Shown here one piece after another: positions 25,401-64,000 of a stretch of DNA of 64,000 nucleotides. This DNA comes from Tetradesmus obliquus. Its lineage: Eukaryota > Chlorophyta > Chlorophyceae > Sphaeropleales > Scenedesmaceae. The notes beneath the pieces were generated by a model. It saw nothing but the letters and a program-made list of their open reading frames with translations, was not told where the DNA came from and searched no databases. The position numbers were made by a program, and so were the translations under genes. Location of the stretch: positions 4,385,001 to 4,449,000 of the forward strand of contig CP126195.1 of NCBI GenBank assembly GCA_030272155.1. The letters are read 5' to 3'. The stretch's first letter is position 1. Each line of letters opens with the position of its first letter.

Positions 25401-28400
25401 CAGAAGCGTCAGGGCAGCGGTTGAACCCATCCAAGTCGCGCTTGCTGCATGTTGGGCGACAGCCAGCAGCGGCAGCTGCGCCGGGTGGGGCAGCGCAGAA
25501 TGTGGGCGGCATGCAGGTTGTGCAGCGCGCCAAATCTATAGGAGTGTTTTTTGGTGAGCGTGGCAATAGCAGCGTGGATTGGGAGGGCAGGCTGGAGACA
25601 GTGCGTCACCGCATGCAAAATATCAGTCGCATCTCCAAGCTGTCTGCGTTTGGCAGGGCCTTCGCTGCTAATGCATATGCTCTGTCCACCATCCTGTATG
25701 CAGCGCAGTTTGCCGCGCAGTTGCCAGCTATTGTGTCAGAACAGCTCAGCAGGTGGACGGCAGCGCTTGTTGATGCTGGCTTGGGGCCTGAGGATGATCT
25801 TAGGCGTGCCCCTGGCATCCCTGGGGACTGCATGGCTGCACATCCTAGGTGTGGTGGGTTTGGCCTTCTGCCCGTTCACCATCACTTGTTGTCTCGCTGG
25901 GCTTGTGAAGCAATCCCCCTCCTGCAGGGCGGTGCTGCACCGTGGGTGACAGTGGGACGGGAGTTGTGGGCACAGTGGGCTAGCGCTGTGGATTGTTTCA
26001 CGCGCGCTGCTGCTAGTAGCCCTTGGGGCCTTGCGTTGTGTGCCCGTCATCATATCTTCCCTGCAGCTCCTGCGGATGCCTGCTTGCCATCGCCTTTGCG
26101 TGTTTTGGCGATGGGTTTGCGTGCCCTGCCACCGTTGCGTCATGTGGGAAACCAGCCTTTGGACGTGGATGGTTTGTGTTGGGAGGCTCCGTTGTGGGCC
26201 AATCCTCTGTTTACAGTGGTACAGTCATGGCAATGGTTTGATCAGCAGCGTCAGGTGGAGGTGGGCTTGGAACAGGTGGCGCCGTGTGGCCTGCTGGAGC
26301 TCCCCAAGCTGCAGTGTTTGGGTCAGGCAGTGTTGCTGTTGTCAGAACTTGAACGTGTCTGTGCCTTGCCAGGGTTTTCTGCTCAGCGCTCCGCTTATGA
26401 GCGCGAGATATGGGGCCCGTGGCTGCGCAGTAGACCGCAGTATGGTGATCGGCAGCAGGCTCGGCAGCATGTGCAGCATCTGCTGTCGTTTGTGCCGTCT
26501 GTGTGGCATACTGCAGCACGCGCGCACCTGGCGGCTGCCCAAGCTGCCGGTACGAGCGTTGCACAATTATCCTCTGTTTCTCCTGTAGACATTTTGATTG
26601 CGCGCGAACCGTTGTGTGCTGATTTGGGTTGGCAGCGGCAAGGGGCAGACGGTTTTATACGTTTGGCTGATCTGCAGGTTGCTGATGCCACGAAGCTACA
26701 ACGTCTTGCTGCGCTTGATGCCATTGCGTCCCGCCATGCTGCCTTTGTTACTCGGGTTAGAGCCCTGGATGCCCTGCCGATGGCAGTCAGCCTGCCTGCA
26801 GTGCAGTCGGTGTTGTCTCGTTGGTGGCAGGTGCGGGTGGCTAACATGTACAAGGAAGCGGCGTGGCGCTTGGCTTTGGATGCATTCCCTACTGCTCAAT
26901 GTATGCAGACTACTGCTGCGTGTGCAGCATGTTCTGCTGCAGGGCCTGGGGTGGCATCATTTTTGGACATGTCCTGTTGCTGTGGCGGTGCGGCGTGAGG
27001 TGGAAAGTCAACTAAGGGCGTTCAACTTGTTGCCGGCAGGTGCTGTACTGCCGTGCCGAGCTATATGGTTGGCGTGCCCCCCTCATAACGCTGTACATCG
27101 GTTGGTGTGGGACATGGTCTGTCTTGCAGCAGTGCATGCTTTTGAAAAAGGCCGCAGGGCAGCGTGGGCTGTGTCAAGTGACCTTGGGGTACCCCAGCTG
27201 GTGGAGCAAGTGGCTGTGAGAGCAGCAGTAGGTGCTTTCTGGGATGCACTGGCGGACTTTGCTGCTGCGGCTAGGGTGCCGTCACGGTATAGAAATCGGC
27301 TGCTCACACAACAGCCTTTTATTGCCTGGCATACTGTGTTGCGTGGCAATGGTTTGTGTGTGGTGCGGCGGTGATGCCCTTCTTCTCACTGTGTGTACAT
27401 GCTTTCTCTGTGAGCTTCTGACACGCCAGAGCTAGCCGTCTTGCTTTGCAGGAGCTGTGAGTTGCCGTATCGCTGCTGCAAAATGTAGTTGTGCGGCCCT
27501 TGCAGCAGCTGGCTTGTTCTCTGCTCTCTCTCCCCAGTTTGTCGCCTCAGGCCACCGCCTGCCAGGCTGTGTTTCTGCTGGTGGGTGTTGTTCTGTGGGT
27601 TCAGCCCGCCCGCTGCACTGCATAAAGTGCAGCTTGCTGTCACTGACACTGTTTACACTAGTCCTGCCTTTGTTTAGCATCGACACTGCCTGAGCTGTGA
27701 CTGACGGCTTTGCCTGCAAGGCCATATGTCAAGTTACACACACACAGAGAGACTTTCTGGGGTGAGTCTCCTTGAGTGACAGCCTGTTTTGCTGAGTCAT
27801 CTGCGACGTTCCAGATTTTCGGGTGTTCGTTGCAACGTAGTTGCCTGTGCACACCGTGTAACCCCTCTTCTTCACACTACGTGAGCCCTGGCAGCCACGC
27901 TGTTTTGTACATTGTATGATGCTGTGTGTTTGCAGCACAGATGTTGGCGAGGACTACCTTTAGGCTGGTGGTGCTGGTTAGCTGCACGTCTGTGTGTTGA
28001 CCGCTGCACACCTTTATATTCCTCTGATTGCCATGCAGTCTCCGTGTTGGGGCGGGCCGCCTGTACATCTGTGCCAGCATGTTTGGGGCGTTTGGTATGC
28101 CTGGGCAGCATGCCTGTTACTGCCTCTGCATCTCTTGTGAGCTTGGCTCCCACGTGGTGTTTGCTGGGCCGCCTTTTGCGTGGTTTTTCTTGTTCTCATT
28201 AAAGGCTCTGCATGTTTTGGCCGAGTCTGTCTGTGCCTGTGCTGCATGCCTTGCCGCTGCTTTTGGGGCCATGCCGTGTTTACACTGGCAGCCGAAGGTA
28301 GTGCATCATGTTTTGGCGCTGGCGCTGGCGTTCTGCACAAGAGTGCCTTGCCTTTGCTGTTTGACCTGCCTGTTGGGTGGAAACTTGTTTGGTCTGCTAA

Positions 28401-35705: not shown

Positions 35706-38700
35706 TCACTTCTTGTTAAGCTCCTGTGGATCCTTTATGGTCAGCAGGCTGCGCGCAAGCGGTGTCTCAGCAGCAGCGGCAGCAGCGCGCGACCCAGCAG
35801 CAGCACTGCCGCCAGCGCCAGCGCACATGCGTGCCGACAGCAGCTGGTAGGCAGCTGCCATGTCAACAGACAAGCTCTGCGGGCCTGCAGCAACACACAA
35901 AGATGTGGTGCGTTGGAGCAGCAGCAAGTGCACTGCGGCAAAGTCCAGGTCACAAAAAACGACTTTCTGTGGATGCTGCTGTAGGAGTGAACACTACCTG
36001 CACACTGTAATCGCCCAGGACGAAAGCAGATTCTCGTGCTTCACATTTCACAAACATGCCATGGCAAGTACCTGGGGCAACATGTCCAGTTTGAACCTGG
36101 TCCTAACAGCAGCGACATACCGCAGAAGTTGAACGCGTACTCCTTGGTGCAGCACTGCAAACATCTGTTGCGCCACGCGTGCATTCACACAGTTTGTGCG
36201 CGCTGCACAGCCCACCTGCTTTGCTGAGCACTGCATCCGAATACACCAACCATGAAGCACTTCAAACAATGAATGCCCACCTGCTTTGCTGAGAACTGCA
36301 TCCAGATACGCAGCAGCTGAACAGTACTGCAGACACCCAACACTCACCTGCTTTGCTGAGCACTGCATCCAGGTACACTAGGTCCATGAAGTATTGGCCC
36401 AAGGCTTCTAAAGGGCAGCCAGCAGCAGCAGCACTAGCACCACCAGCACCACCAGCAGCAGCAGCTCCAGCATTCGGCAGGCTTGCGAACGCTGATGACA
36501 GTGCACTGCCCAAGTGCTCCAGAGCAGCATGCAGCAGCTGCTGCATGAACAGCCTGCAGGGGTGCAGCGCAAGGATGCAGCGCACACACGGAAGCAGCAA
36601 CACAATGAGCATCCATTGCACTGAAAATCAACATTCACATCAGGGTAAGAACGCTGCAAAATCAGGTCACAACTGGCAGCAAAGCAGGTCTGGCAGCACA
36701 AGATACATTCAAGCAGCAACAGCTCAGGCAACGCACAACTGCATGCGCTACAGCACATGCGTGTGTGCAGATTTGGGTCCTCACGCACGGACAGCACATG
36801 CACACTTCAACACGCCCTCCCCATAACCCATAGCAGCCCTGCATTGCAACCCTGCAACACACTGTCCGTTCCACTGTCCGACCCACTGTTCAACACACTG
36901 TTCAATACACTGTTCGATACACTCAACACACTGCACTACCCAGCACCGCCCCCACCTGGCATATGTGAACGTCTCCGACTGAATGCCAGCCACCAGCTGC
37001 ACCAGCTGCTGCGCATGCGGCGACACCTCCCGCAGGTCAGGCGGCACGCCCACAGGCTGGCCGTCTGGCTTTATGTAGCTGCCCAGCAGCCGGTCAATGC
37101 TGCGCCGCTTGCGCTCCAAGTACACGCCATGCACAGCCTGCGGTTGATGGAGAAAGCACATACGGTGCAGCTTGTTTGAAATGGCTAAAACACGGCAAAC
37201 ACTCAAGCAGGTGAGGGCGGCCATGCATGTGGTGCACTGGCTCTGAGCTGTGCCAGCCAACTGCTGCTGAAGGTTGCGGCGATGCGCCGGATGGTGCGCC
37301 CGCCAAGCAGTGTACAGCCGGAGGCATGCGCGTCAGCGCCCAGACCAACAGTGCGCAGTTCTTGAACTTTAGCTGCAGCCGCCAGACAGCAAAGCAGGGC
37401 GTACTAACATACATGCACACAGCAAATCCCAAGACGACTGTATTTGCTGCCATACGTGCGCCGCCGCCGGCGCTGCCGCAGCGGCAGCAGGTCTGAGAAC
37501 ATCTCTGGAACACGCATCCCAGGCCGCACCTGTATGGTTGAGTCCAGGCGCCCTGCCAGCTTCACCACGTAGCGTGAGCAGCGCTCCACCTCAGCAGCCA
37601 CCTCGCCTGGCGGCAGCAGCAGCAACAGCAGCAAGTGATGCAGCTGTGACAAACACACAATGGTGCCATGCTGCACACTGATTATGGTGCCATGCTGCAC
37701 ACTGATTATGGTGCCATGCTGCACACTGATTATGGTGCCATGCTGCACACTGATTATGGTGCCATGCTGCACACTGATTATGGTGCCATGCTGCACACTG
37801 ATTATGGTGCCATGCTGCACACTGATTATGGTGCCATGCTGCACACTGATTATGGTGCCATGCTGCACACTGATTATGGTGCCATGCTGCACACTGATTA
37901 TGGTGCCATGCTGCACACTGATTATGGTGCCATGCTGCACACTGATTATGCGCACGTGGCAGCAGAACTGCTTCAAACTCCGGGCAATCCTGTGCAAAAG
38001 CACCTGCAGCAGCAGCTGATATCAAACAGCCTGCGCAACGCTCGCTGTAGCGCAGCTGCGCGCGTTGATAGGTGCTGCTCGCTGTAGCGCAGCTGCGCGC
38101 TTTGATAGGACTCTTGCATCCCTTCCCTCGCAACTTGACCCACACAGCTGCAGCTGCTGCACTGCTATATGCGCGCAAGGCCCTTGCAACCAGCAGCACT
38201 TGTTCATCATGTGCCGCAGCTGTCCAGCTACAATTTTACAACTGTCCTCCCAACTGCTTCTATGAAAACAATGACTATATGATGCACGGTGTCCTGCAGA
38301 ACCGCCCACCTGTCAGCACCAGCAGGAAGCGCTGCGTGAGGCTGCCCACAAGCCGCTCCCGCATGAAGCTCAGGTTGCTGCTCATCAGCAGCAGCCGCAC
38401 ATCGTCAGACAGCACAGCACCCAGCACACTGCCTGGCAGGCCCAGCGCAAAGCTCAGCCCGCCAGCAGCAGCAGCAGCAGCAGCATCCCCGGCAGCAGCA
38501 CCTGCAGCGGCTGCTGCAGTATCACCTTCGCTGCCATCGAACAGTATGTCCTGGCCGAGGACTGCTGCTGCAGCTGCCGCTGAGAGCCCAGGCCGCCGCA
38601 CTGGACTCGACTCCCTGCCGCTGTCTTTGGTGGGAGACGAGCCAGTTGCTCTGCTGCTGCTAGCCTCCTTTGCTGCTGCTGCTGCTGCTGCGCCTGTTGC

Positions 38701-42600: not shown

Positions 42601-43116
42601 GCTCGCGCCATCCTGCACCTGCACATGCACGCGCACACAAGTTTGCAGGAACAACACAGCATACCGTTGTTGGGAGCTGGGCGTGCTGCAGAAAGTCCAT
42701 GCGTGTGCGCACGCAATCTGCAAAGCTTGTGGTCCTTATGCAGGCAACACGCAGTGTGTGATATGCATGGGCTGCACTTGCTGTGCAGCATTGCCTGCAG
42801 CACCATTCTCACACCCGCGCACCTGCTGTATGGCGCTGTACAGCACCTCCGTGCTGACCCCTGTGGAGGTGGACTCGATGCGGCGCAGCTTCACGTAGAT
42901 GTCATCAATTGTGGTCTTGCAGCTGATGAAGCGCTCAAAGTTCTGCTTGACCAGCTGCTTGAGCTGCCCGGTGCGCTCCCCAAGCTCGTGCTCCAGCACG
43001 CGCAGCCCTTGAGCCAGCTGTGGGGCGCTGCTGGCCTCGTGGAAGATGGCCAGGTAGGCCTCGGGGTCAAAGCCTTCCTCGCTCGGCAGCAGCTTCACCT
43101 GAACAGAAGCAGGCGC

Positions 43117-43152
<36 letters not shown>

Positions 43153-43240
43153 GCAGCAGCAAAACATGAGATGGCCAGGTAGGCCTTGGGGTCAAAGCCC
43201 TCCTCACTTGGCAGCAGCTTCACCTGACGAAAGCAGGCGC

Positions 43241-45989: not shown

Positions 45990-47293
45990 TCACACTTGCG
46001 GCCAGCCGCCGTGTGCTGCCTTGTGGTTGAGCACCCGCTGCGCCACAGACCTCCACTCCCCATTCACGCCAGCCATCTGCAAGCTGTCCTGCACCCCCTT
46101 CAGACCGCTACCACCTGCCACTGCCTGCAGTGATGCAGAGAGCAGCCTGTCGAAACCTGCTGCTCCCTGCATATCTGCGCTCTTCAGGCCGCACTGGCAG
46201 CGCATGTGGGTGTCCAGCTGCATCACTGCCCGCTCCAGCATGGAAGACTTGAGCTGTGGCGCATTGGTGTAGCGCCCTGGCAGCAGCTTCATGTACCTCA
46301 CCACCTGCAGTGCGCAATTGCAGGCAACAGCAGCAGCAGCAGCAGTAGCAGCAACATTGATAAGCCATAGCGTCGCTTGCTAGCTGCAGGCCCAGCCTAG
46401 GCCCTGGCAGGGCCGCCGGCGTGCGGCACAACCCATCACGTCACGCGCGAATATCGCGTGAGGAAGCTGCGTTCAAAACCACTTTTGATGCGCTTCGCGA
46501 TCCAAACATGGCAGAAACCAGCATGTAACGCATTCAACGCTCGTCCTGGACCTGCACTCGCCTGCTGCGCAGCGTGACTGCTTGCGAGGGCCTTGCTGTT
46601 GGGTGGCACCCGCACGTCACTCTTGAAGCGCTGAAACACGACATCGCAGTCAGGCAGCGGACCCTGCGCGTCCCTGCCTTCAAACAACCGGATGCGGTTC
46701 TCCCCAGCCTGCATGCGGTATGTGATGCCTGCACCAGACAACTGTGCCTGCAACTGGCTGTACACTGCCATGCGCTGTGCATGTGTGACTGTAGTGATGT
46801 TGTCATTCAGGCGTACAAAAAAGTCCCAGTCGCTGGTGTGCAGCAGGCTGGTGCCCTTGGCAGTGCTGCCCTGCAGCTGCACTGTCGCGTGGCCTTGGAA
46901 GATTTGCTGCACAACCTGAAGACAGTAGCAGACACAGGCACAGCCACTAGGTGCGGTTGCACTGCCAACTGGTGATGTGCATGCCTTCAGGAAAAAGCAT
47001 GCACCCGTGCATTGCCAAACAATAAGCAGCACGACACATGAAGTAGAACTATTTTGCAAGTTTCACAGTGAATGCAGCGCTGCAAAGCAGGCTGGCTGTG
47101 CTGTGACTTGCGGGGTGCCACCCTGCATCATCGGATGATCTGTGCTGCAGCGGTGTACCTCATCACAGCAGCGCTTTACAGGCCGCAACCTTGGGTCGTT
47201 CTTGCTCATTCCACGGCTGTTGAGAGCCAGCATAGCGGCGCCTGGGCTGGCAAAGGGGGCCCTGGCACTCTGTACTGCTGCCATGCCGAACAT
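45990..47293 (-). CDS. NTase1: small nucleotidyltransferase-fold protein, catalytic signature intact
   Basis: Three exons, 47159-47293, 46562-46915 and 45990-46304, give 804 nt and about 267 residues. Exon 2 carries the polymerase-beta superfamily signature: GSTAKGTSLLHTSDWDFFVR has the GS motif followed, 11 residues on, by D-x-D (residues about 74 and 76). A likely third acid follows in LPDCDVVFQRF. These residues bind metal and nucleotide in class I enzymes such as CCA-adding and OAS-type proteins. Exon 3 is an all-helical tail of about 104 residues with no PAP/OAS1 C-terminal domain that I recognise. The N-terminus before NDPRLRPVKRCC could be an organelle leader. The donor after exon 2 reads GCGAGT, so a GC-AG intron is inferred from the paralogues. 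The start is the first ATG of a closely spaced pair (47293, 47284). Substrate unknown. Confidence 0.7.
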
Positions 47294-47603
47294 TATACCT
47301 GCTGCTAAGTCGTGAGATCGTGGTTGTAAAGTCGCAGAACCGCTGCGTAGGTCGTCAGTATCGACCGGGGTGAGAACGATGAAGGCCAGCCCCGCAAGAA
47401 GCAGAAACAACTGCCATCGACGGTTCAACGGCTGGAACCTAAAGCGCAGCCCGGTGACATCCAGCGAGTTCAACCAAGGCTGTGCTCAATCAAGCTTATG
47501 TTGACTGTGATCATCAATTAAGATCATTTAAGATCAAGTTGTCGTCCTCCTGTCGCCATTCTCGGTTCCCGCCCTCTCGTTGTACTGCTGCCATGCCGAA
47601 CAT
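47271..47603. repeat. 23-bp direct repeat in the divergent promoter region
   Basis: TGTACTGCTGCCATGCCGAA followed by CAT occurs at 47271-47293, where it contains the NTase1 start codons on the minus strand, and again at 47581-47603. The second copy could offer an alternative start, but that frame soon stops. Confidence 0.8.
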
Positions 47604-48014
47604 CACATCTGCGGCAACGTGAGAGGGTGCGAGGCCTCCCAGCAAAAGTGCTGGATACTGTGATCATAATGAGTTAAAAGAGACCAAGTCAACCAGTAAA
47701 GGCAGTTCCTGACCAACGCTATCGAACTAAGAACTGCCACCGTACGCCCACTAGTGTACGCGTACGCGTGGCAGTGACCGCCGGGTGAAGGTGTCGTCGA
47801 CTTCCAAATCAGTAAGTCGATCATGTGGCTAGGCTCTATCAAGAAGTTGAAATGCAGCTGCCCAGTGGCATACGTTGAGATCCATCTTAGTTCTCGGCCC
47901 TTGTGCTGGATCAAGAACCACATCTCAGGCCTTGTGCCCCACCATCACCTGCTACCCCATATTCTCTGCTTGTGCCCGTACTCACCCTGTCTTCGTGCCT
48001 CAACCACATCTCAT
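47294..48014. promoter_or_regulatory. Divergent intergenic region between NTase1 and NTase2
   Basis: About 720 bp separates the two divergently read paralogues and must hold both promoters. It contains AT-rich GATCA-bearing stretches (47,500-47,540 and about 47,660) and a self-complementary GTACGCGTAC near 47757. No defined element such as a TATA box can be assigned with confidence. On the plus strand, frame 47823-48014 is open and could extend the NTase2 N-terminus. Confidence 0.45.
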
Positions 48015-49814
48015 ATGCATAGCCTGCATGTCCGCTCTTTTGCCACAGCAGCGCCCAGCCAGGGTCGACGCTTGCCAGTTGCATCAACTGCTGCCACCAG
48101 TCGCAGCAGCACCAGGACAGCAGCTCAATATGGCACAGCAGGGCAGGTCATGTGGCATTTGAACCAGACAAGCCTTGAGAGAAACGACCCAAGAAAGCAG
48201 CGTGTGAAAGACTGCATTCACCAGGTAAGGCACAGCTGCAAACTGCTTTTGACTATTCAGCTCACCACCTGCAGCCCCAAGAATACGGTATCCTTGCAGC
48301 GCCGGACAGTCGCCCGTGCGCAACCTGCAGTTTGCATGCGACGGCCTCTGTCCATGACAAAGTCATGCCGTTAAGCTGTGCCGGGGACCCACATGTCGCC
48401 ATCACCTCTATGTACACAGCCGGCCTGGTCCTCACTGGTGTCATCCTGGGCGCACACATATGTGTACTGTCAGTATGTGTTACTGGTGGGCTGTTGTCCT
48501 TGCTCAAGAGCAGGACAGGCGCCAGCTTGAAATGCTGCAGGCCTGCAACCTCACACCAACAGCCATGCTCCAAGTGCGTATATGCGCTGCGCGGCCCTGA
48601 TTGTGCTCTGCTGCATCCCTTGAACACCTCGGTGCACGTTGCTGCCGCCGCCGCTGCTGCTGCTGCTGCTGCTGCTGCCACCGCCGCTGCTGCCATTGCA
48701 CTCTGCCGCCGCAGGCTTTGAATGATGTAATCAGGACACAAACCACTGTGGAGGACCAGGGCAGCAGCCGCAAAGGCACTGGCCTGCAGGGCAGCAGCGA
48801 CTGGGACTTCTTTGTGCACCTGGGCGCTGCCACCAACACAGTGACTCAATTTCGGCGCATGGCTATCGCAAATCGGCTGGGTCAGTTGCTGTCAGCTGGC
48901 GGCATTTCCTCAACATACGCTGCGGCGAGCACAGAGTGCACATGTACGACGGCAGAGATAGCTGTGGCCCGCTGCCAAACGTCGACTTGGTGTTTCAGAG
49001 CTTCAAGGGCCGCGACCTCGTGCGACCAGACAGCAGGGCAATGGCAGGCAGCCCAGAGGCGCAGCAGGTGATGCAGCAAGCTGGCGGTGACATGTTCTGC
49101 ATCTACTGTATATGTGATGAAAGGCAAAGCTCCATCACAGCATGGCAACACCTGTGCCAGGGCAAGTGGCTCGCTCTTGCAGTCCACTTACTTGATTGTA
49201 TCTGTGATTCAGCAGGCTAGGAAGCAGCAGCATGAAACATTGCAAATCTCGCACATGCAGCAGGCCCGGCCGGGTGTGGCACCCCTGATCCAGTGCATCA
49301 TCTGCGGTGTCCTTTCTTGGCACTGAACCCTTGTTGCGCATGACAACTTTCCCTCAAAAAAGAGTGTAACTGTGGTTTCCTGCAGCTGCAACCCGGCAAC
49401 AACTGCTTCTTCACAAGTAGCAGCATGCAGTGAACTTGCAGCTGTGCAGTTGCTGTCATGCACTGACCCTAGGGGCTGCTGCCGCTGCCGCTGCCACTCT
49501 GCTGCTGTCAGGTGGTCAAGTACATCAAGCGCCTGCGAGTGCACTTCACAAACTTGTCTGAGCCCAACTCATTCATGGTGGAATTGCTGGCGCTGCAACT
49601 GCAGGAGCAGCGGCAGTTTGGGGACGGGCTTCCAGCAGGTGAAGATGGCTTTGAAATGCTTCTGATTGCAGCGCTGAAGGCAATTGCAGGCTTGGAAGGT
49701 GCAGCAGGACTTGCACAGGCTTTGGTGGACGCCAAGGTAGACAGCAAGGAGTGGAGGGATGCGGCAAAGTTTGTGCTGCGGCAAGGTGTCTTTAATCGCT
49801 GGCTGATTGTGTGA
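48015..49814 (+). pseudogene. NTase2: nucleotidyltransferase-fold paralogue with a frameshift
   Basis: Exons are 48015-48224, 48715-49067 and 49512-49814. The leader MHSLHVRSFATAAPSQGRRL looks mitochondrial; an upstream in-frame ATG at 47823 is possible. Exon 1 ends with NDPRKQRVKDCIHQ, matching the end of NTase1 exon 1. Exon 2 carries GSSRKGTGLQGSSDWDFFVH, with GS and D-x-D intact. At about 48922 the frame must shift by one base (a 1-nt loss) for the family sequence to continue as GEHRVHMYDGRDSCGPLP and VDLVFQSF, so the reading frame is broken in this sequence. Exon 3 is the helical tail (VVKYIKRL...), stop at 49812-49814. Intron positions and phases equal those of NTase1. This is either a recent pseudogene or a one-base sequence error. 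Confidence 0.7.
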
Positions 49815-51319
49815 AGCTGCCCCTGCTAAATGAGCTTGCACAGGCAATGCGTGTGTTTGATTAGCCTGCCGGCTGTTGTAACATCATGTGGTAACATAGT
49901 GCAGAGTGCCACATGGTAATGGTTTCACAAGTCCTGGATAAGCACATCGTCGGCGTGTCCAGTGCTGCATATCTTTGGGCAACGGGTCAGGCAGACCATC
50001 AGCCCTGGCTTTCCACCGCAGTCTATCCACAGCTGGCTGATGAAATGCCGTAGCTAGGTCAGCAATGTTACTGTGTTACTTTGCTACTCCTCGCACAGCG
50101 TCAAACCATGAACTGCAGCCATCACAGGTTGACAAACGCACACTACGAGTCAGGGCCATGTGTGCAAATGCATCTGACGGCATGGCAGCTGTTTGCGCTC
50201 ACGCGATGGTCGGGCACAACCACTGCTGTAGTACGACACCTGCCTTGACAGATGCACCAAGTCAGAGACCGTCTCTGGTGTGCCAGCCTCAGCATTGGCA
50301 TGCAACAGCATCGAACACAATGGATGCAGTTAAACGTCGTTCAGCATGATACATGGTGTGCAGTACCACCGTCGTGAAGTGCAGCAGGCCTTAAACAGCT
50401 GTCACGGCACGGCTTGCCAGCCGTGGCTGCGCCCGTCTCACATGCTGCACAGCCTGCAGGCAGACCAGCCCAGCCGTGCACTGCCGCAGCCTTGCCTGGC
50501 ATTGCATCCTTTCAGCAGCATGGATGAATTTGGCGGAGCAGCAGCACCACCATCACCAGCTGGTGTTATGGTGCTGTGACGGTTTGTTGAAAAGCGCCAG
50601 GCCAATGTGTTGTGTCCTCATCCAAGCTCAACAAGTGCAGTCTACTGACAACATTGCAGTTCATTCGATTGCAGTCTGCTGATAACTGTGCAAAACATGA
50701 AGTGCAGTACAAGTGTGCAGTGCAGTGAGTGCAGTCCGCTGACAACAAGGGCACATCGATTGATATCAATGGGAGCGACAATAACATGAGGAGGCATGCT
50801 CAACCAGCTTTTTGTGCCAGGGACAGCCAGGTCGATTGTGACAACACGTTTCTGCAGAAATAGGGAAGCATTTGAGGCTGAAGTAACAACACTGTCAGAG
50901 GATGCGTCACTATAAGCTACGAGCTGCCAGCAGCAGCGTTTGCGACAGTATGCAGGGCAGAACTGTGGAAGATACCAATGCCACACACATACCCACGGCA
51001 GATTCAGCACTAAACACAACAAACCCCCTGTCCCGAGACGTGCGTCTCAAGTAAGGCAGACCCCTGTGACGAAAAACCAAATCATAAGCTCAAACGCCCA
51101 CTTCAAAAGCAGTGCAATGCCACCAAAGCACATGATGATCATAACATCAACCGCAAGAGCATGCAGCTGCATTCAAAGCTGCACATTGTATACATATTCT
51201 GAAACCCCCAAGCAGCATACTTGTGTACTTCAGCGCTACTTGATCCTCAGTCGTCATGCAAGCTCCCATTTCAACAGATTTTACGAATCAAAGTGCTCGA
51301 CTGAGCTGCCTGTAGCGCC
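49815..51319. other. Intergenic between NTase2 and NTase3 (convergent 3' ends)
   Basis: This 1.5-kb stretch has no gene I can support. At 50630-50750 the motif TGCAGTCTACTGACAAC and two variants (TGCAGTCTGCTGATAAC, TGCAGTCCGCTGACAAC) recur on the plus strand. Open frames here show no family resemblance. Confidence 0.5.
49877..49881 (+). terminator. Putative polyadenylation signal TGTAA of NTase2
   Basis: TGTAA, the usual green-algal poly(A) signal, lies 63 bp after the NTase2 stop codon, at the expected distance. Confidence 0.5.
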
Positions 51320-51766
51320 TCAGGCTGCCACCACGCATTCCACAATCTGCCACCAGCCCCAGCCCAGCTCCCTCATGCTTAACACAGCACGCGCAGCACG
51401 TTGCCACTCATGCCCACCCACCCCAGCTTGCTGCAGCAGCACCTGTAACGCCACACCTTCCGCTTGCTGCTGCTGCTGCTGTCCTGGCAGAGAGCTCTTT
51501 CTGCAGCTGGGTGTGTCGCCCTGCGGGCAGCCATCTACACCTTGTTGGATGCTTCCAGTGTGAAAGCCAGCTGCAGACTCTGCTATTGCCTGCAGCGTAG
51601 CTGTCAGCAGCTTGTCAAAAGCAGCAGCCCCCAGCAGCTGCCCTGCAGAGTTGCTGCACAGCTGGCTGTTGACCGCTGAGATGAGGCGGGGCAGCGCTGA
51701 TGGCCTGGGGAGGTCACCCAGGCAGCAGGGCAGCGCTTCAAGGTATAGCAGCACCTGGTGAACACA

Positions 51767-51824
<58 letters not shown>

Positions 51825-52844
51825 CGGGCAGGCAGGCAGGCAAAGGAGTCAGCCTGAGTTATTGCGGCAATGGTAATGCTATGGAATACGAGAATTGCTC
51901 CCTTGACCATTCGCCATCTTGACACACCTGGTGAAACAGGTACTCAGTACAAGTAGACTTTAAAATGCTGGCAGCATGCAATAGAACACAGCAGCAAGCC
52001 TGCTTGTGGCACAGCTGCTCAAAAACTTCATCGTCACAGCCCTGCCTGCACAGCAGACCACAGTCAGCATGCTCACCTGCTGTGCAGTGTAGCTCAGTGG
52101 CGCCTCCACAGCAGCAGGGTACCCGCCGCCTCCTGCTGGCCCAATTGCTACCTCCTGTGCATGATGGCAGTGCTGTGACCCATCATTTGCTGCCTGCTGA
52201 GCATGCCGCCAGAGCTGTGTGCTGTCATACCCTGCGGGCACAGCAGTGTCACAGCCCCCCAGCAGCAGTTTGACTGCAGGCAGCACCCCACATGCATCAC
52301 TGCCATCAACCAGCCTGATCATGCAGCTTGCAGCACCATCAAGGCTGCGCCTGCTGCAGTTACTGCTGCTGCTGCCAATGCTGTTGGTACCGCTGATGCT
52401 GCTGGTACTGCCGAGGCTGTCCGTGCTGTCTGCCCTGCTGAAACTGGCTGTACCGCTCGAGCTGCTGTCCAGCTTGTACGCATCACAGCCATCGCTGACG
52501 CACCCGTCACATGCCGGGCTTGATTCAGCGCAGCGAGGTGAGGTGGGTGCTGCTACAGCCGTGTAGGTAATGCCTGCTGTTGCTAGCTCATGGTGCAGCT
52601 GCTCCAGCAGGGCTGCCGTGTGGCTGGAATCCATTAAATATGTTGAATCTGTTGGTGTCTCAACAACACCGCATGGAACGGCCTCCACAGCAGGGCGGGC
52701 GTGGCTGCTGGTTGTGGTGGTGCTTGCAGGGTCCTTGCAGCTGCTGCAGCAGTCGATCACCATGGCTCCTGCAATGCTGGGTACCGTGCTGCTGCAGCTG
52801 TTGTGCAGCAAGACATGGCTGTCTCCAAATACAGTTTTGACAGC
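51320..52844 (-). pseudogene. NTase3: degenerate nucleotidyltransferase-fold paralogue (5' exon unresolved)
   Basis: Two exons are clear: 52077-52844 (256 codons) and 51320-51754 (144 codons plus stop), joined in the same phase as in NTase1 and NTase2. The tail GAAAFDKLLTATLQAIAES matches NTase1 GAAGFDRLLSASLQAVAGG. In the nucleotidyltransferase exon, HVLLHNSCSSTVPSIAGAMV replaces the GS...D-x-D stretch, and LPAVKLLLG replaces LPDCDVVFQ. All expected metal ligands are therefore lost. The exon is swollen by Ser/Thr/Gly-rich low-complexity sequence. A first exon near 53100-53280 (FANDSWSREM...) is suggested, but no donor fits the phase. It is either a decaying gene or a catalytically dead regulatory paralogue. 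Confidence 0.6.
51768..51842. repeat. (GGCA)n tetranucleotide run
   Basis: About 18 GGCA units with one interruption lie next to the acceptor of the last NTase3 exon. On the coding strand it is a TGCC-rich tract. Confidence 0.95.
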
Positions 52845-54364
52845 CTGCAATAATCAAAAGGCAAAGTGCATGCTAATGAGCTGGTAGGCTGCTTGTCTGG
52901 AGCCCAATGCAGCAAACGATGATGGCTGCAGGCGGTACCACAAGGCCCTTAGCATCATTAGAGAGTGCGAGCACACTGTGCTTGCTATACGATACAAGAT
53001 GTGACAAAAAAAACTCTGTTACGGACTTAAAGCAGGTTGTTTACGGAAGGGAGCAATCAAGCAAGTAGTTGTACACATGTGCAGATGCCTTCTCACCAAG
53101 TCAAGGCAACGCAGCACTGGCTGCAGCCTTGGGCTGCATACATCTCCCTGCTCCATGAATCGTTGGCAAAAGGCACCAGTGTGGGTTTCCTGCCCTTGTT
53201 GTTAATGCTGCACTCAGAATTCGGTGCGGCTGAGGGTTTGTCGTGGCCAAGCTGTCGCAATCGAAAACACCTGTTCACAACGGTATGACACCACGGTGAT
53301 GGAACGCATGGTATACAATGATGATGCTTGCGCGAATAGGGATTATACTGCAGAGTTCTGTGAAATTATAGGCAGGTCATGCCGGGTTACGCGATATCGC
53401 TATCGCTGCGGCCTTGTCACGCCACGTGTGATCACGTGGCACCCCATGGAAAAGGCAGCATGGAGCAGCTCACAGCCAATGATTGAACCAGTTACAGGAC
53501 AGTACCAACATGAACAATATGTAGGGAAATTCACGTCCGGACGATCAAGCAGTACCATTGCAGACGGTGGTGTTGCTGGTGCAATAGCACCTCGCACACA
53601 CCAGAAGCACAGCTGACACACCCTTGTATGAGACCTTCACGACATTAAAATGACAGTCTATGACTCTGGGAGGGCTGAACAGCAGGTGCTCAAGTCCCAA
53701 CACCGCAAGATCATATGTGCCGGAGGGATGCATGTGTGCAGACCGAAGTTCAAATAGGAGAATATGCTGAAGACGCGGCACTCAACTCTGGCTCAGCCTG
53801 TACGCTCTCAGCTACATTACTGCCAGCACTACCAGCAATGACCATACAATACACCATGCAATGACCATACATCCGCAGCACTGTGCCAGACCACACGCCC
53901 ACCACGGTGTAGCCTGCACGTGCAGTGCAAGCGCCATTTCTCCTCTCTCTCAGACCTTCGCACATGCTGACTTGTCCAGCGTACATGATGCTGCAGCTAA
54001 ATGGCTGACACACCGGCTGACCTCACACGAACACCCAAGCAAGCAAACCCTGTCGAAGGCTGTACATGAACATCGTGATGAATCTGGCAAGGCCTGCACC
54101 AAGGCGTACTGGCTGTTCATGGTGCATGCGCTTGCTGCAAAGCACTCAAGGTCAGTGTGAAAATCCAGCCCTCATCCAGACTCAACTCAACACAACCACA
54201 ACAACACGTCCATGTCTTGGCGCCCACGTGTGATTACCTCGAGAGGGAGCTCTCTCTATGCATTGTAAACACGGCATGCACACAACAGCATACAAACACA
54301 CTGGGATCCTGCAACCGTATAGATTCGTCCTTGTACAAACAGCATCTCGCATCCAGCAGCCCTC
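52845..54364. other. Intergenic: NTase3 upstream region and LPA3 3' flank
   Basis: This region may include an unresolved first exon of NTase3 (53100-53280). The rest has short open frames on both strands without family resemblance. A plus-strand frame ending at 54160 is helix-like but unsupported. Confidence 0.45.
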
Positions 54365-57300
54365 TCACGCATTGGGCAGGATCTCAAGTGACACCTCCTT
54401 GAGTGAGGGCCGCGTGTCGCTGCTCCACACGCACTGCGTGGCGTCAGGGTCGATGGGGCTGCGCCGCAGCACCTGCCAGGGACCAGGGTACGCCCTGAAC
54501 AACACACCTGGTGTAGCAGCAGCAACGGAAAGCCACACCAACATACAGCAGCAGCAGCAGCAGCAGTAGCTCAAGATGATGAGTACGGCATTGTCGCGCA
54601 TATGCATGAGGTGCCACACACCTGACAGCGTGCTCATGTGGGTGTGGATGCAGCAGGCTGCAACATACGCAGCAGGAACATGTTCTTGGCTGCACAAAGT
54701 ACGTTGCTTGTTGTACGCACCTGGGCGCGTGCCCTTGAAGTTGTGAATGTAGTAGGCCGCCTCCACCTTGGGCAGGAACTCAGCAGTGAGCTTGGCCAGC
54801 TCGGGGAAGAACAGCCCTGGACGCAGCGGCAGCAGCAGCAGCAGCAGGGATGGCGTGATGCGTGAACTAGGACGCTTTCAACAGTAGCAGCTGTCTCACA
54901 CACATGTGCACCTTACGAGCGCGCACAAGCTGCCTACACGCTAGCTGCTGCAGGGTAGGGATTCCTCACCGCACCACGGATTGCACGGCACCACCGCGCC
55001 TGTTGGCTGCCAGCAGGAATTGGCATTGTCATTGTTACTGTGGCTGGTCTGACAACTGTAACATGTTTACGTCGAGGAGGTTGTAGTGCGTGCCGGTGTG
55101 TCTCCCCCACCTGGGTAGTAGCCACCACGCAGCCTGTCCAGCTCCCCATTGAAGATGATGAGCGGGCGGTCTGCTGGTGCTGCTGCTGCATCCCACAGCT
55201 GCCGCGTGGCCGACAGCTCCTCTGCAGCAGCAGCAGGAGCAGCGGCAAAATTTTTGCTTATTAGCTGCACCAGCTTGCTCAAATGAGAGTGTGCACAGAG
55301 AGCATAGCTGCAGCAGGGCAACATACATGGGTGTGTCACCAAGCCCTTCCCAGGTCTCACAAGGTCATCAAATGCCGCCAACCTTGGCTCCGATATACAC
55401 ACTATGATGTGAGTTTACATACAACAGCTCGCCACGCAGCAGCACTGCGCACCTCGTGGGTTGAAGCTGGGGTAGGCCACCACGAACATGGCGTCATCCG
55501 GCTTCACCAGGTCGCTCGGCTGGAAGGTGTTGCCAAAGTTCATGCCCTGCGCACAACAGAAGTTGCAGCAGCAGCCAAAGCTGATTGCGGTGTTGAGGGC
55601 TGCAAAGCGGCAAGGTGGATGCCTCCACACAAACAAAGCTGCAGCAGCGCACACAGATGGCTGCAATGGCAAAGTGTTGTGAGGGGGCAAAGCAGCAGGA
55701 AGAGTGAAGCTGGCTGAACAAGCTAGACCAACAACAAACACGAAGAAAATGAACAAACCCACTGCTCACCAGCACAGCCCAGGCGGCGCTCTGCTTGGTG
55801 AGGTAGCCCATGCGGAAGTCGCAGTCGCTGCCAAAGGTGGCGTCCATGGCGCGCCTGCCCGCTGACGGGTCGCTGGTCTGCCCGGAGCGCGCAATGGCCA
55901 GCTCCTGCAGGCGGCGGCGCAAAATGCCACGAGGAGGCCATTGCAAGGGGACCCAGCAGTGCAACATGACGCAAAGGTGCATGAGCATGACGGCAGCAGT
56001 GGCAGGTGTGAGGTGGTGTGGCGTGGTGCATGCTGTTCGTTTGACTGTGGCAGCATGCGGTGGTAAGCTACTGGCAGCGCTGCTGCTGCAGCCTGCTGCT
56101 GCTGGCACGCCTGCTGCGGTCGAAACACTATTGTATCAGCCCGCCGATGCATTATAGCATGCGCCTGGCCTTTGCCAGCTCAAACACACACCTTGTGCTG
56201 ATAATGCTGTCGTCTGCTGGTGTTTCTGTTGCTGCGGCGGCGGCAGCAAAAATGCCACGGAGCGTATCCAAAATGCGATGCTGCTGCTGCAGCCACAGCG
56301 CACCACGTCGGCGTGACATAACATGCGCGTGGCTGTGCCGTCTACTGGGGCTGCTGGTGTGCTGCTGCTGCTGCTGCTGTTCAGACTGCTGCTGCTGCTG
56401 CTGCTGCTGCCTGCCTGAGCTGCTGAGCTGTCGCAAGCACTAGCAGCGCACCACATTGTCGGGGAAGAACACACGTGTGGCCTGCGCCTGGTCTGCAAAG
56501 CCGTTCATGAACTTGCGCAGGTAGGCCATGCACTCGTTCATCTCTGTCTGGCCGTCACCATCGCCTGCAGCAGCATGGCAGTGCATGCGGTGTAGGGCAG
56601 GGAGCTGGTGTGGTGAGTTGGGCTGAGGCCGCCTTGGCCTGTGTCGCTGCACATGCCGCACACAGCACCGCATTGATACACTATACACAATGCTGTGCTG
56701 TCAATTTGGAATACTGCGATACAGCTTAAGGCATGCCAGCTGCTGCATTGCGCACAACTGCAACACTGAAAACATCCGCTGCACCTCCTGACTGAGGCCA
56801 GCAGTGACACTTGCTGGCTGAACTTCCTGAAACATAGTTAGTTCAGTGCTTACCACTGCCCGTGCTTACACCTGCTCCCTGTGCTGCGCCTCACCCTGTG
56901 ATGCTGCCAGCCCTGAGACAGGGAACTCCACCTCCAGCAGCTTGAGGCCATCTGCCAGCGCAGCCTTGGTGGCCAGCTGCGCCTGCCGAATGGCTGTGTC
57001 ATACTCGGAGGGAAACTCCTGCAAGGCAAGGCGCAGTGATTACACATACTGATACGTCATTTGATGGTGCAGGGGCGTGGCATGCGAAGGGAGGAGGGGG
57101 CGCGTGTGTGAGTGCTGTGTGGGTGCCCATGCTGTGCAGTGGCTGTGCTGGTTTAGCCTGATGGAAAAGAAATGCGCATGTGCATCAGCTGCTTGTTGCT
57201 AGGATCTGCTGGGAGTGCTGGGATACAAGGTGTCAGTTTCAGAAAGCAAATGTTGCTTGACTGCTTCACAAACCAACACCATTGCATACATTCAGCTGGT

Positions 57301-58958: not shown

Positions 58959-61900
58959 TCAGAACTCCTCCTGCGAGTCGGCAGCCGCGTGGCTCTCCGC
59001 CCACTCCCGTGCATTCTGGAACAGCTTGAGCCAAGGCGCAGGGCCCTTTGGCTCCAGGCCAATGTCCTGAGGGTAGTATGGCAGCTGCCATGTGAGGAAG
59101 CAGCGCTCAGGGTGGGGCATCATTGCCAGGTGGCGGCCGTCTGCACTGCACAGCGCTGCAATGCCCAGAGGGGAGCCGTTGGGGTTGAAGGGGTAGGCCT
59201 CTGTGGGTGTGCCCTGCGCGTCAACATACCTGCAGCAGCAGAAAAGGACAGGGAAGGAGAGCACAGACGGGGACATGCACAGGGCAGGGATAGTGAGCAA
59301 GCATGGTGCGATTGATAGGGTGGGCAGCGGTGTTGCTGCTATCATTGTGTATGGAAGATGGTGCCACGCCGCTGCTGCCGTGCCTCAGTCGAGCGAACCA
59401 GTTGTGTCTGTCAGCAGCAGGCGGCACTCCCATGCCGCCAGCCGGCTCAGCTCTCAACAACGATTGGGTTGTTCCTCACAGGCAGGCAGCAGCCAGGCGA
59501 GGTGGCTCAGATGCACTAGCACATGCTAAAACCTCTGCAAACTGCATGTTCACATGCAGCAGCTGCACTTTCCTGATGGGCAGCACAGCTCAACCCACAC
59601 AACACACATGCACAAATGTCAGCTGGTGAACCGGACACCAGGCATGCACAACTCACAATGAACCACACGGCCAGGCCGTTTCACGCAGCAGATCCTACCC
59701 AGCCAAAAAAAGCATGCATTGCATCAGCTTGCAGGCAGAGGGTTGGGCTGCTGCAGGTGAAGTCCCCAGGCAGGGTTCTCGCCAGAGCAGCAACCCTCTG
59801 CATTCAAGCTGCTGAACGCCCAGCAGGGTGCTCTACACAGTATGCGGCCTAGGTAACGAACAACATAGCAAACACAGTTGATGCGAAGCAAACAGCACGG
59901 CAAGCGCTGTGACTTTCGCCAGGCTCCTCTGCTCAAAGAGTTTCAGCAACCAGCATGGCAACAAGGTAAACATGGCGACGGGCAAGCAACGCCAAGTGCT
60001 CCAGGACAAGGGCCTCTTGCTGGGCTGGCTGGTGTAGCACTGGTTGATCTTTGCTGCAGCACACTCTTAAGCGCCATTGCAGGCGACAAGATCACTTCAG
60101 GATGTGCTGCAGCAAAACTAAAACAGTGTTACACAAGCCAGCCCAGCAACAAGCCGTCCACTGCCGATCAGCTGGCTCTGCTGGGGTGCCTGGGCTACAC
60201 CAGGCCTGCAACCACATCCCTCATCAGGGGTTGCGCTGTTGCACGTGGACCCTTCCCCCTACATCCCAACCCTCTGCAGGCAAGCTGCTGCATGCCCAGT
60301 CACTGCGCAAAACAAAGCATGCGACCTAGGTAACATCCAAAACAGTCACCACCACTGATGCGAAGCAAGCAGCATCGATATACAATGAGAGAACAGTAGG
60401 CTGCGCCCCACCAGCTTACAAGCAGGAGGTCAGGCTAGCACAGGTCATCGCTGACTATGCTGCGCATGACCTCCTGCATGCAAGCTGCTGGACCTGCTGC
60501 AAGAGCAGCACACAGCTTCCAGGTCAATCAACCGCGCCACAAGGGTAACCACACCATGCCCCCCCCCCACAAGACCACTCGACACTCCAAGCTCTTCCTG
60601 CAACATGTCAACACCACACGACATTTCACACACCAAACCCAGGGGTAACAGCAGCAAGTACACCAAAGTCGCATACATAAACACACAGAAACAACCACTG
60701 GCGACTGTCCCTCACCTGATAGGAGCCAGCTTCTTGTCCAGCACTGCTGCCTGCACTGCAGGCTCAGGGAACAGCACCTGGCCCTCCCCGTGTGCAGCCC
60801 ACACGCCAATGGTGGAGCCACCCATGCCAGCCAGCCACAGGCTGGGAGAGTCGTCAGCGATCTGAACGTTGATCCAGCGGCTCTCAAACCTGCGGCGCAC
60901 CACACCAGGATACATGTAAGGTTTAGCGCACGCGCATGAAACAACAAACAGGTGCGAGAGATCAGGGCAAGAGTGCAAGCTAGCTAGTTTGTGCAAGCTA
61001 GCTAATTTGTGCTGCTGCAGCCCTACATATGCACCAACCTCACCTGCCCAGATCACACGTGAGCGGAAGGCAGGATGCAAGGAGGCTGAAGCTACATGGC
61101 AACTGGCTAACTACTTGCGGCCGCTGCAGCGTTGTGTGCCGCCTCACCTGCCGGACTTGTTGTGCACGAAGCGCGGCTGCTGCAGGTCCTGCAGCTGTGC
61201 CGCCACGCCTCCCTCCTTGGCTGCTGTGGCGGGCACCCAGCCCAGCAGCGCCATCAGCTGGCAGCCGTTGCAGATGCCCAGGCTGAAGGTGTCAGGCCTG
61301 CGATGTGGTGACATTCAAATATAGCACAGCGGGCAGCATACATGTCAGCAGCTGTTTGCAGCATGCACAGGCTCAAGGCTGTGCATTTGTCGAGGCTGGT
61401 GAAGCATGCAGCAGCACAGGACGTGCCTGACGTATCATGTGCCTCACTCGCCAACCCAGCAACACGCCGCAGATCCACACCATCAACAGAGCACACCTAG
61501 AGCATGCAGCGCAGCACCCGCAGCAGCGCACCCACCTGTTGTAGAAGTCCTGGAACTGCTGCAGCACCTTGTCGTTGAAGCGGATGGTGCCCGCCCAGCC
61601 CTTGGCGCTGTCCAGCACGTCAGCGTAGGAGAAGCCGCCCACAAAGATGATGCCACGGAAGCTGTCCAGCTGTGCGCGGCCTGCAGGAGACAGCAAAAGG
61701 TCAACAGATGTTGAGTGACATGTTATTTGCGTTTGTATGGAGAAGCTTGAAAGCGACACGGCACTCATAGCAGGATTTATGGTTGCAGCCGTTGATGGCC
61801 GAGTCGTGTACAAGGCTGCGGTCAGCACCAGAAGACACCTGTCACCTATCCACTTCTGATTGAAGACAATCCTTCACCGCCAACCACCAACCCGATGTCG

Positions 61901-64000
61901 GCTGAGCTCTGCTCACCTGCAATGAGGTCACTCATGGTGATGTCCCACGGCTCCATGCCAGCTGCATACACGGCAGCAGCCATCTCACGGTCGCCGTTGC
62001 TGCCCTCCTCACGGATGACCGCCACGCGCACCTGCGCGGCAGCATAAGCAGCAGTAAAAGTCAGAAACTGCAACAATATTTAACAGCCGCTGCACGTGGA
62101 ACTGATTGCAAGCACCGAGGCTGCCTCCAGTGGCAACCAGGATGCTGCAGACCGGCTGCTGCTTGCTACACAACAGGACCAGCACCAGCAGCAGTGGCAG
62201 AGCCCCAGCTGCATGACAGCACAGCGCTGCAGGCCCACCTTGTCTGCGCTGCTCATCTTGTCAGCGGGGGTGAAGCTGGGAGTAAAGGGCAGCGTCCACT
62301 TGGGCGCGGTCCTGCCCTTGAGTCCAGACTGCTCCTCGTCAACGCACTCCTCAGCAGCCTGCAGCAGCAGCAATGACAGATTGTCAACGCACATCTCTGG
62401 CTCAAAACCATGGTGCAGCGATTGAACCGAATATAGATGCTGCAGGAGCTGCTGTGTCCATGATACCAGACAACGCTGCGTAGGACAGGCAGCAGCTACT
62501 GACTGACCCACAACTCATCACAGCAAACACTTTTACAGACTCAAACAAACACAAGAGCCGCACCTGCAGCCGCTCCAGTGCGAAGCTGGTCTCCTCCCAC
62601 ACGTCGCGCAGCGCAGTTGTGTTGCCGCCCAGCACCGCCTCGCCGCCCACATGCAGCTCCACAGTCTGCTCTGGCAGCACCTTTCCGATGATGCTGCAGG
62701 GCACGCCTGCCTGGTTGAACAGGCTGCTGGCCAGTGCTGCATTGTCTGGTGACACCTCAAGGACAAGGCCCAGCTCCTCGGCAAAGAGAGCAGCAAAGGG
62801 AGCCAGCTCCGGGGATGCTGCTGCTGCTGGGGTTGGCAGGTCCACGCTGATGCCGCAGTTGCCTGATGTGAAGCAGCAGCAGCAGCAGCAGCAAAGCGGG
62901 GAAGAATAGGGGAGTCAGCAGAGTCGAGGGATGCTGCTGGGGTAGGCGAGTCCACGCTGATGCTGCAGTTGCCTGATGTATTGTGACATGATGATGCAGC
63001 AGCAGCAGCCAAGTAGGCAAGGCAAGTGAGGGTGGCAAGGCATGGTGACAGTGTAGTGATCAGCAGAGGCAGCAGCAACAGCATGTGTACAGCCAACAAG
63101 GCATGGTGACAGTGGAGTGATCAGCAGAGGCAGCAGCAACAGCATGTGTACAGCCAACAAGGCATGGTGACAGTGGAGTGATCAGCAGAGGCAGCAGCAA
63201 CAGCATGTGTACAGCCAACAGGCGAAGGGACGCTTCCATGCCGGCCAGCTGTAGTTGCGGCTGGCAGCCATGCACAGACCAGCCACGAAGTAACCGGGGC
63301 CACATTGCAACAGGGCAACTGCGCGAGGACCAAAACAAGGTATGGCAGCGCTGGGGGCAGCGGCTGCAGGCGTGTGTGCTGCAGCCGACTGCTGCCCCCA
63401 AACGCGACAGCTGTGCTCTAGGCGGGAGTAAGCGCTGCGTCATGCCACGGGTATTGACATGCGAGTGACTCTAGGTGTCCGCCAGACCAGACCATCAACA
63501 GGCTGCACCTGGTGGGTGCAACACACAAACATACAAAACACAGCACACAGTACCAGTTGGCTCTTCCTGCTGCCCTGCGCGAGTGTTGAGTACGCTGCAG
63601 CGCCTGATTGCCACACAGTGACATGGCTGCTATCAACTTGCACAGAACAAGCCACAAATACATCCACAACACCATCCTACCTGCAAAGGCCATCTCCAGC
63701 AGCGTTGTGGCAATGCCGCCGTCACTGATGTCATGCCCTGCCGACACCAGCCCCTGGTCGATCAGCGACTGCACAGCACCCCACGCAGCCTTCAGCTGCC
63801 CTGGCTGCACATCCGGGCAATCGTCACCGATCTGATTGTACGCCTGCGCAAGCGCGCTGCCGCCCAGCCGCCGGGCCCCTGGCACTGATGCCAGGTCAAC
63901 ATGCAGCAGCACGCCGCCAGCCGCCGCCAGCTTCAGATCAGGTGTGACGACCTTGGTGATGTCTGGGCAGCCCACGTAGGCTGAGACGACCAGGTTGCCT
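58959..64000 (-). CDS. PUR4: Phosphoribosylformylglycinamidine synthase (5' part beyond window)
   Basis: It catalyses the fourth step of de novo purine synthesis (FGAR + Gln + ATP to FGAM); in plants it is in plastids and mitochondria. C-terminal exons, all in phase: 63681-64000 and beyond, 62564-62862, 62239-62358, 61917-62031, 61536-61680, 61148-61297, 60716-60889, 58959-59229. Synthetase-domain landmarks: VVSAYVGCPDITKVVTPDLK, QGLVSAGHDISDGGIATTLL. The C-terminal glutaminase domain (class I amidotransferase, PurQ-like) starts near 62031 with VRVAVIREEGSNGDREMAAA. It has the catalytic Cys in LGICNGCQLM (codon 61261-61263) and the His/Glu of MMPHPERCF (His codon 59112-59114). The protein ends WAESHAAADSQEEF. 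All visible catalytic residues are present. The N-terminal half and the start lie beyond the right edge. Confidence 0.95.
59842..60374. repeat. Duplicated segment within a PUR4 intron
   Basis: A stretch of about 55 bp containing GCGGCCTAGGTAAC ... TTGATGCGAAGCAAACAGCA at 59842-59898 recurs with changes at 60320-60374 (GCGACCTAGGTAAC ... CTGATGCGAAGCAAGCAGCA). The flanks are also loosely similar. The copies lie in the last intron (59230-60715). Confidence 0.6.
62928..62985 (-). repeat. Duplicated exon edge inside PUR4
   Basis: This stretch repeats the 5' edge of the exon starting at 62862 and its acceptor (TCCACGCTGATGC, GCAGTTGCCTGATGT in both), about 110 bp upstream on the coding strand. 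It has the same arrangement as the duplications seen in SEC5 and the oxidoreductase gene. Confidence 0.75.
63038..63220. repeat. Tandem repeat, 3 x 61 bp
   Basis: Three head-to-tail copies of a 61-bp unit (AAGGCATGGTGACAGTGGAG ... CATGTGTACAGCCAAC) lie in a PUR4 intron; only the first differs, at one base. Confidence 0.9.

Follow-up and report, generated by a model that had tools for sequence, protein, structure and literature searches.

What do three neighbouring genes with a nucleotidyltransferase signature encode in the green alga Tetradesmus obliquus, and do they amount to an enzyme system of their own? The genes, here termed NTase1, NTase2 and NTase3, lie within a stretch of 64,000 nucleotides (C5:4385001-4449000; hereafter the window) of the 104.7-Mb, 17-contig genome. 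An original prediction, made from the letters of this DNA and a list of its open reading frames (ORFs), had proposed an undescribed system of three compact enzymes, possibly with a role in organellar RNA tailing, in second-messenger signalling or in defence. What we find instead is one intact enzyme, one frame-broken copy and one copy without most of its catalytic residues. A nucleotidyltransferase-type family without assignment thus survives from that interpretation, whereas the coherent three-enzyme system does not and the organelle role finds no support beyond chance composition. The family is genuine, but it forms a minor branch of a familiar enzyme superfamily; one of the three members is likely live.

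A local family of three paralogues

The three genes, which lie in strand order -, +, - with two modelled introns each (Table 1), align from end to end, NTase1 being 41% identical to NTase2 and 36% to NTase3. They have in common the segments PR...V..C, G.D..G.LP, AQQ/V (intron at the slash), F..LL.A.L.A.A and EW...A..VL. All six introns are in phase 0 and fall at two shared positions, one preceding the V/A-x-x-x with which exon 2 opens and the other following ...AQQ, with six AG acceptors, five GT donors and a single GC donor (NTase1 intron 2), all sites having been placed by homology rather than by transcripts. By codon scores trained on 1444 codons from five other ORFs, the modelled frame came top of six in each of the 7 exon stretches tested (0.28-0.54), and three introns scored between -0.22 and 0.17. 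The end-to-end alignment, the matching introns and the exon codon scores together show that the family is real, and their sequences mark the three genes as true paralogues of a local, old family.

The predicted sharing of intron positions and phases is therefore borne out, and so are the three paralogues, but not three compact, intact enzymes. The expected size of about 267 residues fits NTase1 only, NTase2 coming to about 288 residues across a broken frame and NTase3 to 420; the GS...D-x-D motif ascribed to all three is seen in NTase1 and NTase2, whereas NTase3 retains just the second Asp of D-x-D. The helical tail of about 100 residues stands in part, the tails being 104, 100 and 144 residues long and the only one modelled, that of NTase2, being all helical.

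Fates of the three copies

NTase1 is intact over 267 residues and retains G61-S62, D74, D76, D136 and K169 (numbered by hand count). GS and three carboxylates, the hallmark of class-I nucleotidyltransferases, are found in NTase1 and, across the frame break, in NTase2; NTase3 has one Asp only. From its sequence, NTase1 is the sole intact enzyme of the three and is probably active. Do its leader or that of NTase2 point to an organelle? Such composition is common in the window: of 1162 ATGs with an open run of 32 codons, 219 encode no D/E and three or more R/K, as do the first 32 residues of NTase1, and of 705 with an open run of 53 codons, 108 encode no D/E, as do the first 53 of NTase2. The possible organelle leaders are therefore no better than chance, and nothing else spoke for the suggested organelle role.

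NTase2 keeps the motif residues of NTase1 (GS, D-x-D, third Asp and Lys) when read across the break. Its exon 2 has 353 nt against 354 in NTase1, and the two halves lie in different frames, matching residues 4-70 and 67-118 of NTase1 exon 2, respectively. Because both halves are coding-like by codon score, NTase2 is either a recently frame-broken copy or the product of an assembly error. An extra exon upstream of its exon 2 was dropped for want of homology.

Has NTase3 simply decayed? All its exons are open, giving 420 codons without a stop, and it carries low-complexity inserts rich in serine, glycine and glutamine. Aligned with NTase1 (alignment A5, in which NTase3 is misaligned, was left out of folding), it reads S-C where NTase1 has G-S, and the first Asp is replaced by V, the third by K and the Lys by E, which leaves the second Asp of D-x-D as its one catalytic Asp. 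Simulated substitution-only decay of the 242 aligned NTase1 codons to 36% identity yielded 6.0 stops on average and at least one stop in 500 of 500 runs. Since NTase3 is open, it was maintained as a protein while losing its catalytic set, and is likely a long-kept pseudoenzyme. Pseudoenzymes of this general type include NF45/NF90 and OASL, which NTase3 resembles as a nucleotidyltransferase-type copy without a full catalytic set; unlike them, it keeps one Asp, and a partnership with NTase1 is hypothetical.

Fold and active site

How firmly can the family be placed? Profile matches were weak and in every case centred about the active site; they were obtained with NTP_transf_2 (E 0.0039 for whole NTase1, 0.0018 for its exon 2 and 0.031 for NTase2), with CBASS cyclase profiles (PDLC00803, E 3e-5 for NTase1; PDLC00776, E 1.3e-4 for the first half of NTase2; CBASS_cyclase_b, E 0.0035, 17 bits against a cut-off of 200) and with cca_archaeal (TIGR03671). 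A two-row profile run against the PDB at E up to 10 reached seven distinct sequences, five of them OAS1 or OAS2 (E 0.12-0.94), one a CdnE relative and one unrelated. Profile-profile comparison with four OAS sequences aligned 48 columns of the active site with a probability of 64.5% and, taken as a single comparison, E 6e-5. A low-confidence model of exon 2 shows a strand-helix-strands order with exon residues D31 and D91 on strands, and all 50 of the VIA rows listed for it are of nucleotidyltransferase fold. A PHROGs match (E 0.13) was rejected.

The case for the nucleotidyltransferase fold is built from motifs, from profile matches that are weak and from a model of low confidence; membership of the class-I (DNA polymerase beta) superfamily is in our view very probable. 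The earlier placement in a nucleotidyltransferase-type family without known assignment is thereby upheld: profile search, proposed as a check at the time, found nucleotidyltransferases at the active site but below every curated cut-off, and structure prediction, proposed likewise, agreed with the fold but with low confidence.

Judged by its residues, the active site is nearest to those of OAS, CBASS cyclases and archaeal CCA enzymes. With OAS1/2 the family shares the segment G-S-S/T-x-K-G-T-x-L...S-D-x-D and, in our own reading of the sequences, has a similarly placed third Asp as well as a similarly placed Lys on the first tail helix; it differs in being about 80 residues shorter after GS (by hand count against a 349-residue chain) and in having no OAS1_C match. 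The CBASS CD-NTases (PADLOC cyclase profiles; CdnD, CdnE, CdnG) give NTase1 and NTase2 their best profile scores, over 32-87 residues round the active site; unlike them, the window genes are spliced and eukaryotic, with no SMODS match and no effector among the ORFs scanned. The likeness to the archaeal CCA-adding enzyme is a 45-residue active-site match (E 3e-4), which reaches 19.6 of the 281.3 bits of the cut-off.

Possible activity of NTase1

How might NTase1 work? If it is active, which we consider fairly likely from the residues it keeps, established class-I chemistry would have two metal ions bound by D74, D76 and D136 and the triphosphate of a nucleoside triphosphate held by GS, with K169, on the first tail helix, touching that triphosphate. 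The nucleoside monophosphate would then pass to the hydroxyl of a nucleotide or short RNA. Because the active site is of the OAS/CBASS-cyclase/archaeal-CCA kind, the likeliest reaction would be either the joining of nucleotides into a short oligomer without a template or the extension of a small RNA end. NTase3 might act as a binding partner. We favour, at about an even chance, the view that these are compact class-I nucleotidyltransferases whose active site is OAS/CD-NTase-like, one copy being probably live and one or two having failed or been repurposed.

Several observations weigh against this reading. No match passed a curated profile cut-off (NTP_transf_2 gave 18-19 bits for NTase1 and 15 for NTase2, with a cut-off of 21), no PDB match was significant, and the global profile alignment to OAS was poor (probability 1.1%). 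The exon 2 model is of low confidence (mean pLDDT, the predicted local distance difference test score, 54.8; residues 1-30, including GS, below 50), with VIA Z below 8 and no Foldseek match reaching 0.001; its best Foldseek match is Cid1 (E 5e-3), not OAS (best 6e-2). The similarity of the tail to OAS appears marginal, and the tail model matches nothing; the rows listed for it, 50 from VIA and 50 from Foldseek, include no OAS. Finally, a profile of the window family (A4) does not pick OAS-like genes above chance among 731 ORFs.

Could NTase1 instead be an RNA-tailing terminal nucleotidyltransferase, of the Cid1/TUTase/non-canonical poly(A) polymerase (PAP) or CCA-like type, perhaps serving small or organellar RNAs? 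Cid1, TUTase and non-canonical PAP enzymes provide the best Foldseek and VIA rows of the low-confidence exon 2 model: TUT1 stands top in VIA, where rows within 1 Z are tied, and among the rows listed OAS3 holds VIA rank 48 and OAS1 Foldseek rank 29. Against this, there is no sequence-level match to these enzymes and no PAP-associated domain among the matches listed; no Pfam model of a PAP-associated or central domain was returned for the window proteins at E up to 10. Plant RNA-tailing enzymes are all described with a PAP/OAS1-like domain in one account (PMC13030794). We consider OAS/CD-NTase-like chemistry about as probable as its opposite, and tailing a tentative, lesser possibility.

Relation to OAS proteins

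Does the family truly belong to the OAS superfamily, as a member that has been shortened? The top PDB sequence matches, though non-significant, are OAS1/2, and the tails contain weak co-linear motifs, such as SFMVELLALQLQEQ of NTase2 at the OAS ELL helix; shuffles did as well in 2 of 500 cases for the best of 12 pairs and in 5 of 100 column shuffles, but in up to 463 of 500 for other pairs. The NTase2 tail model (five helices, moderate confidence) has no significant VIA or Foldseek match. OAS1_C (PF10421) is absent at E up to 10 from whole NTase1, NTase2 exons 2-3, the NTase1 and NTase2 tails alone and NTase3, and yet it is found elsewhere in the genome, at C3:5726848 (at the cut-off) and C3:5713700 (below it); with a hmmscan cut-off of 19.9 bits, these ORFs score 25.6 and 17.4. 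SMODS (PF18144) was detected neither in the window proteins at E up to 10 nor in the genome.

Searching with a query derived from the C3 genes recovers three copies on C3 and one on C1, besides two further places: a distant one on C16 (E 0.0024) and one at chance level on C6. The genome thus holds a dispersed OAS-like family, comprising three neighbouring copies with OAS1_C-type exons (C3:5709500-5731900), the C1 copy and a long single ORF on C16. The C16 ORF has GS, D-V-D, an ELL helix and HPVDPT, and matches a cyclase profile (E 9e-6); its four PDB matches are all OAS1 (E 0.18-0.58). One C3 copy (L016, about 4573-4575, - strand) has an in-frame TAA in the tail region, a damaged copy there too. 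The single Ribonuc_2-5A (KEN) match of the genome lies at C3:5294702-5294956 (E 3.6e-23), IRE1 and RNase L-like identities not being separated. In our reading, the C3 genes apparently have an intron between GS and DxD, unlike the window family. Because of this, and because A4 does not find the OAS-like genes above chance, the window family has not branched off from them recently, and the absence of a sequence link to these loci likewise counts against OAS membership, which we think unlikely.

A decaying family without any active product, in which NTase1 would also be on its way out, could account for two of three copies lacking an intact catalytic protein and for the GC donor on which NTase1 depends, but is improbable given that NTase1 is open with catalytic residues and coding-type codon use kept, and that the exons of NTase3 are all open where every decay run gave stops.

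What would an active NTase1 imply? A 2023 survey (PMC10732462) reports OAS-like proteins from 8 of the 12 eukaryotic supergroups and treats as outgroup any sequence that lacks Mab21, OAS1-C and SMODS, so compact families of the present kind would escape such a scheme. An NTase1 that makes short oligonucleotides would be a eukaryotic enzyme of CD-NTase/OAS-like type that lacks the marker domains by which such enzymes are found; one that tails RNA would be very small for a tailing enzyme. In both cases, the set of intact, broken and dead paralogues offers a simple example of an enzyme family becoming pseudoenzymes. A wider proposal, that green algae have an undescribed signalling module of minimal OAS/CD-NTase-like type, formed by a small catalytic oligonucleotide synthase lacking OAS1_C, Mab21 and SMODS together with a long-conserved, catalytically dead partner that regulates it, has in our estimate little chance of being right. 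No paper title naming the family came up in a literature search.

Relatives in this and other genomes

Three six-frame genome searches revealed no fourth copy. The window locus accounted for three of four places with NTase1 exon 2, three of five with NTase2 exon 2 and two of three with NTase2 exon 3, those outside having E of 0.3 or worse; one on C11 (L005, E 0.66) was rejected as low-complexity sequence. None of the searches recovered NTase3, so copies as diverged as NTase3 would be missed. In the search for close relatives beyond this genome, profile A4 gave 58 pattern matches in genome contigs, none confirmed.

On viral contigs, neither the 24 pattern matches of A4 nor the 14 of the C16 ORF were confirmed. 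Searches by tblastn found no close relatives in phages or plasmids, nor did the C16 query in plasmids. A4 matched 0 of 386 cyanobacterial genomes at E up to 0.01, an empty answer that by itself shows nothing for lack of a positive control, and, equally without such a control, 0 of 4 genomes reached via 16S loci at E up to 0.1, one of which is titled Tatlockia and is not a cyanobacterium. No bacterial relative appeared in the searches made. With NTase1 exon 2 as query, two stretches among the viral contigs were said to encode a relative, given without locus; these may be entries from the present genome or from one very close to it.

Gene models and neighbourhood

Table 1. Modelled features of the three genes, in window positions
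Feature	Position	Strand	Remarks
NTase1 exon 1	47159..47293	-	45 aa, begins at first ATG of open frame; PR...V..C segment common with NTase2 and NTase3
NTase1 exon 2	46562..46915	-	118 aa; GS 61-62, D74, D76, D136
NTase1 intron 2	46305..46561	-	GC-AG, 257 nt; positioned by homology with NTase2 and NTase3
NTase1 exon 3 and stop	45990..46304	-	104 aa tail, K169
NTase2 exon 1	48015..48224	+	70 aa; NDPR...VK.C segment common with NTase1
NTase2 exon 2	48715..49067	+	353 nt; GS/DWD/third Asp; frame break near 48918-48930
NTase2 exon 3 and stop	49512..49814	+	100 aa tail, five predicted helices
NTase3 exon 1	53097..53156	-	20 aa; beyond the span originally predicted
NTase3 exon 2	52077..52844	-	256 aa; GS and first and third Asp lost; low-complexity inserts
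NTase3 exon 3 and stop	51320..51754	-	144 aa tail, Q-rich insert, Lys lost

The neighbours that can be named by Pfam are Sec5 (42739-43191), DUF1995 (54368-54877), glutamine amidotransferase (58962-59384) and AIRS_C (63421-63999); they are housekeeping genes, DUF1995 being a plant and cyanobacterial family. Among the 15 window ORFs scanned, with Pfam only, there was no defence-type gene or linked effector.

The GC content of the window is 53-62% in 2-kb steps, which, like the spliced genes and the DUF1995 neighbour, suits a green alga. Several repeats occur in the window. A four-base microsatellite of the GGCA type lies within NTase3 intron 2 (51770-51840). On the + strand, 16768-26995 holds a reverse transcriptase ORF (RVT_1, E 1.6e-17; probably a long interspersed nuclear element), followed by two 666-codon ORFs with like beginnings, 2566 bases apart, which form a tandemly repeated retroelement segment. 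A minisatellite with a 24-base unit, reading IISVQHGT in one frame, spans 37407-38084.
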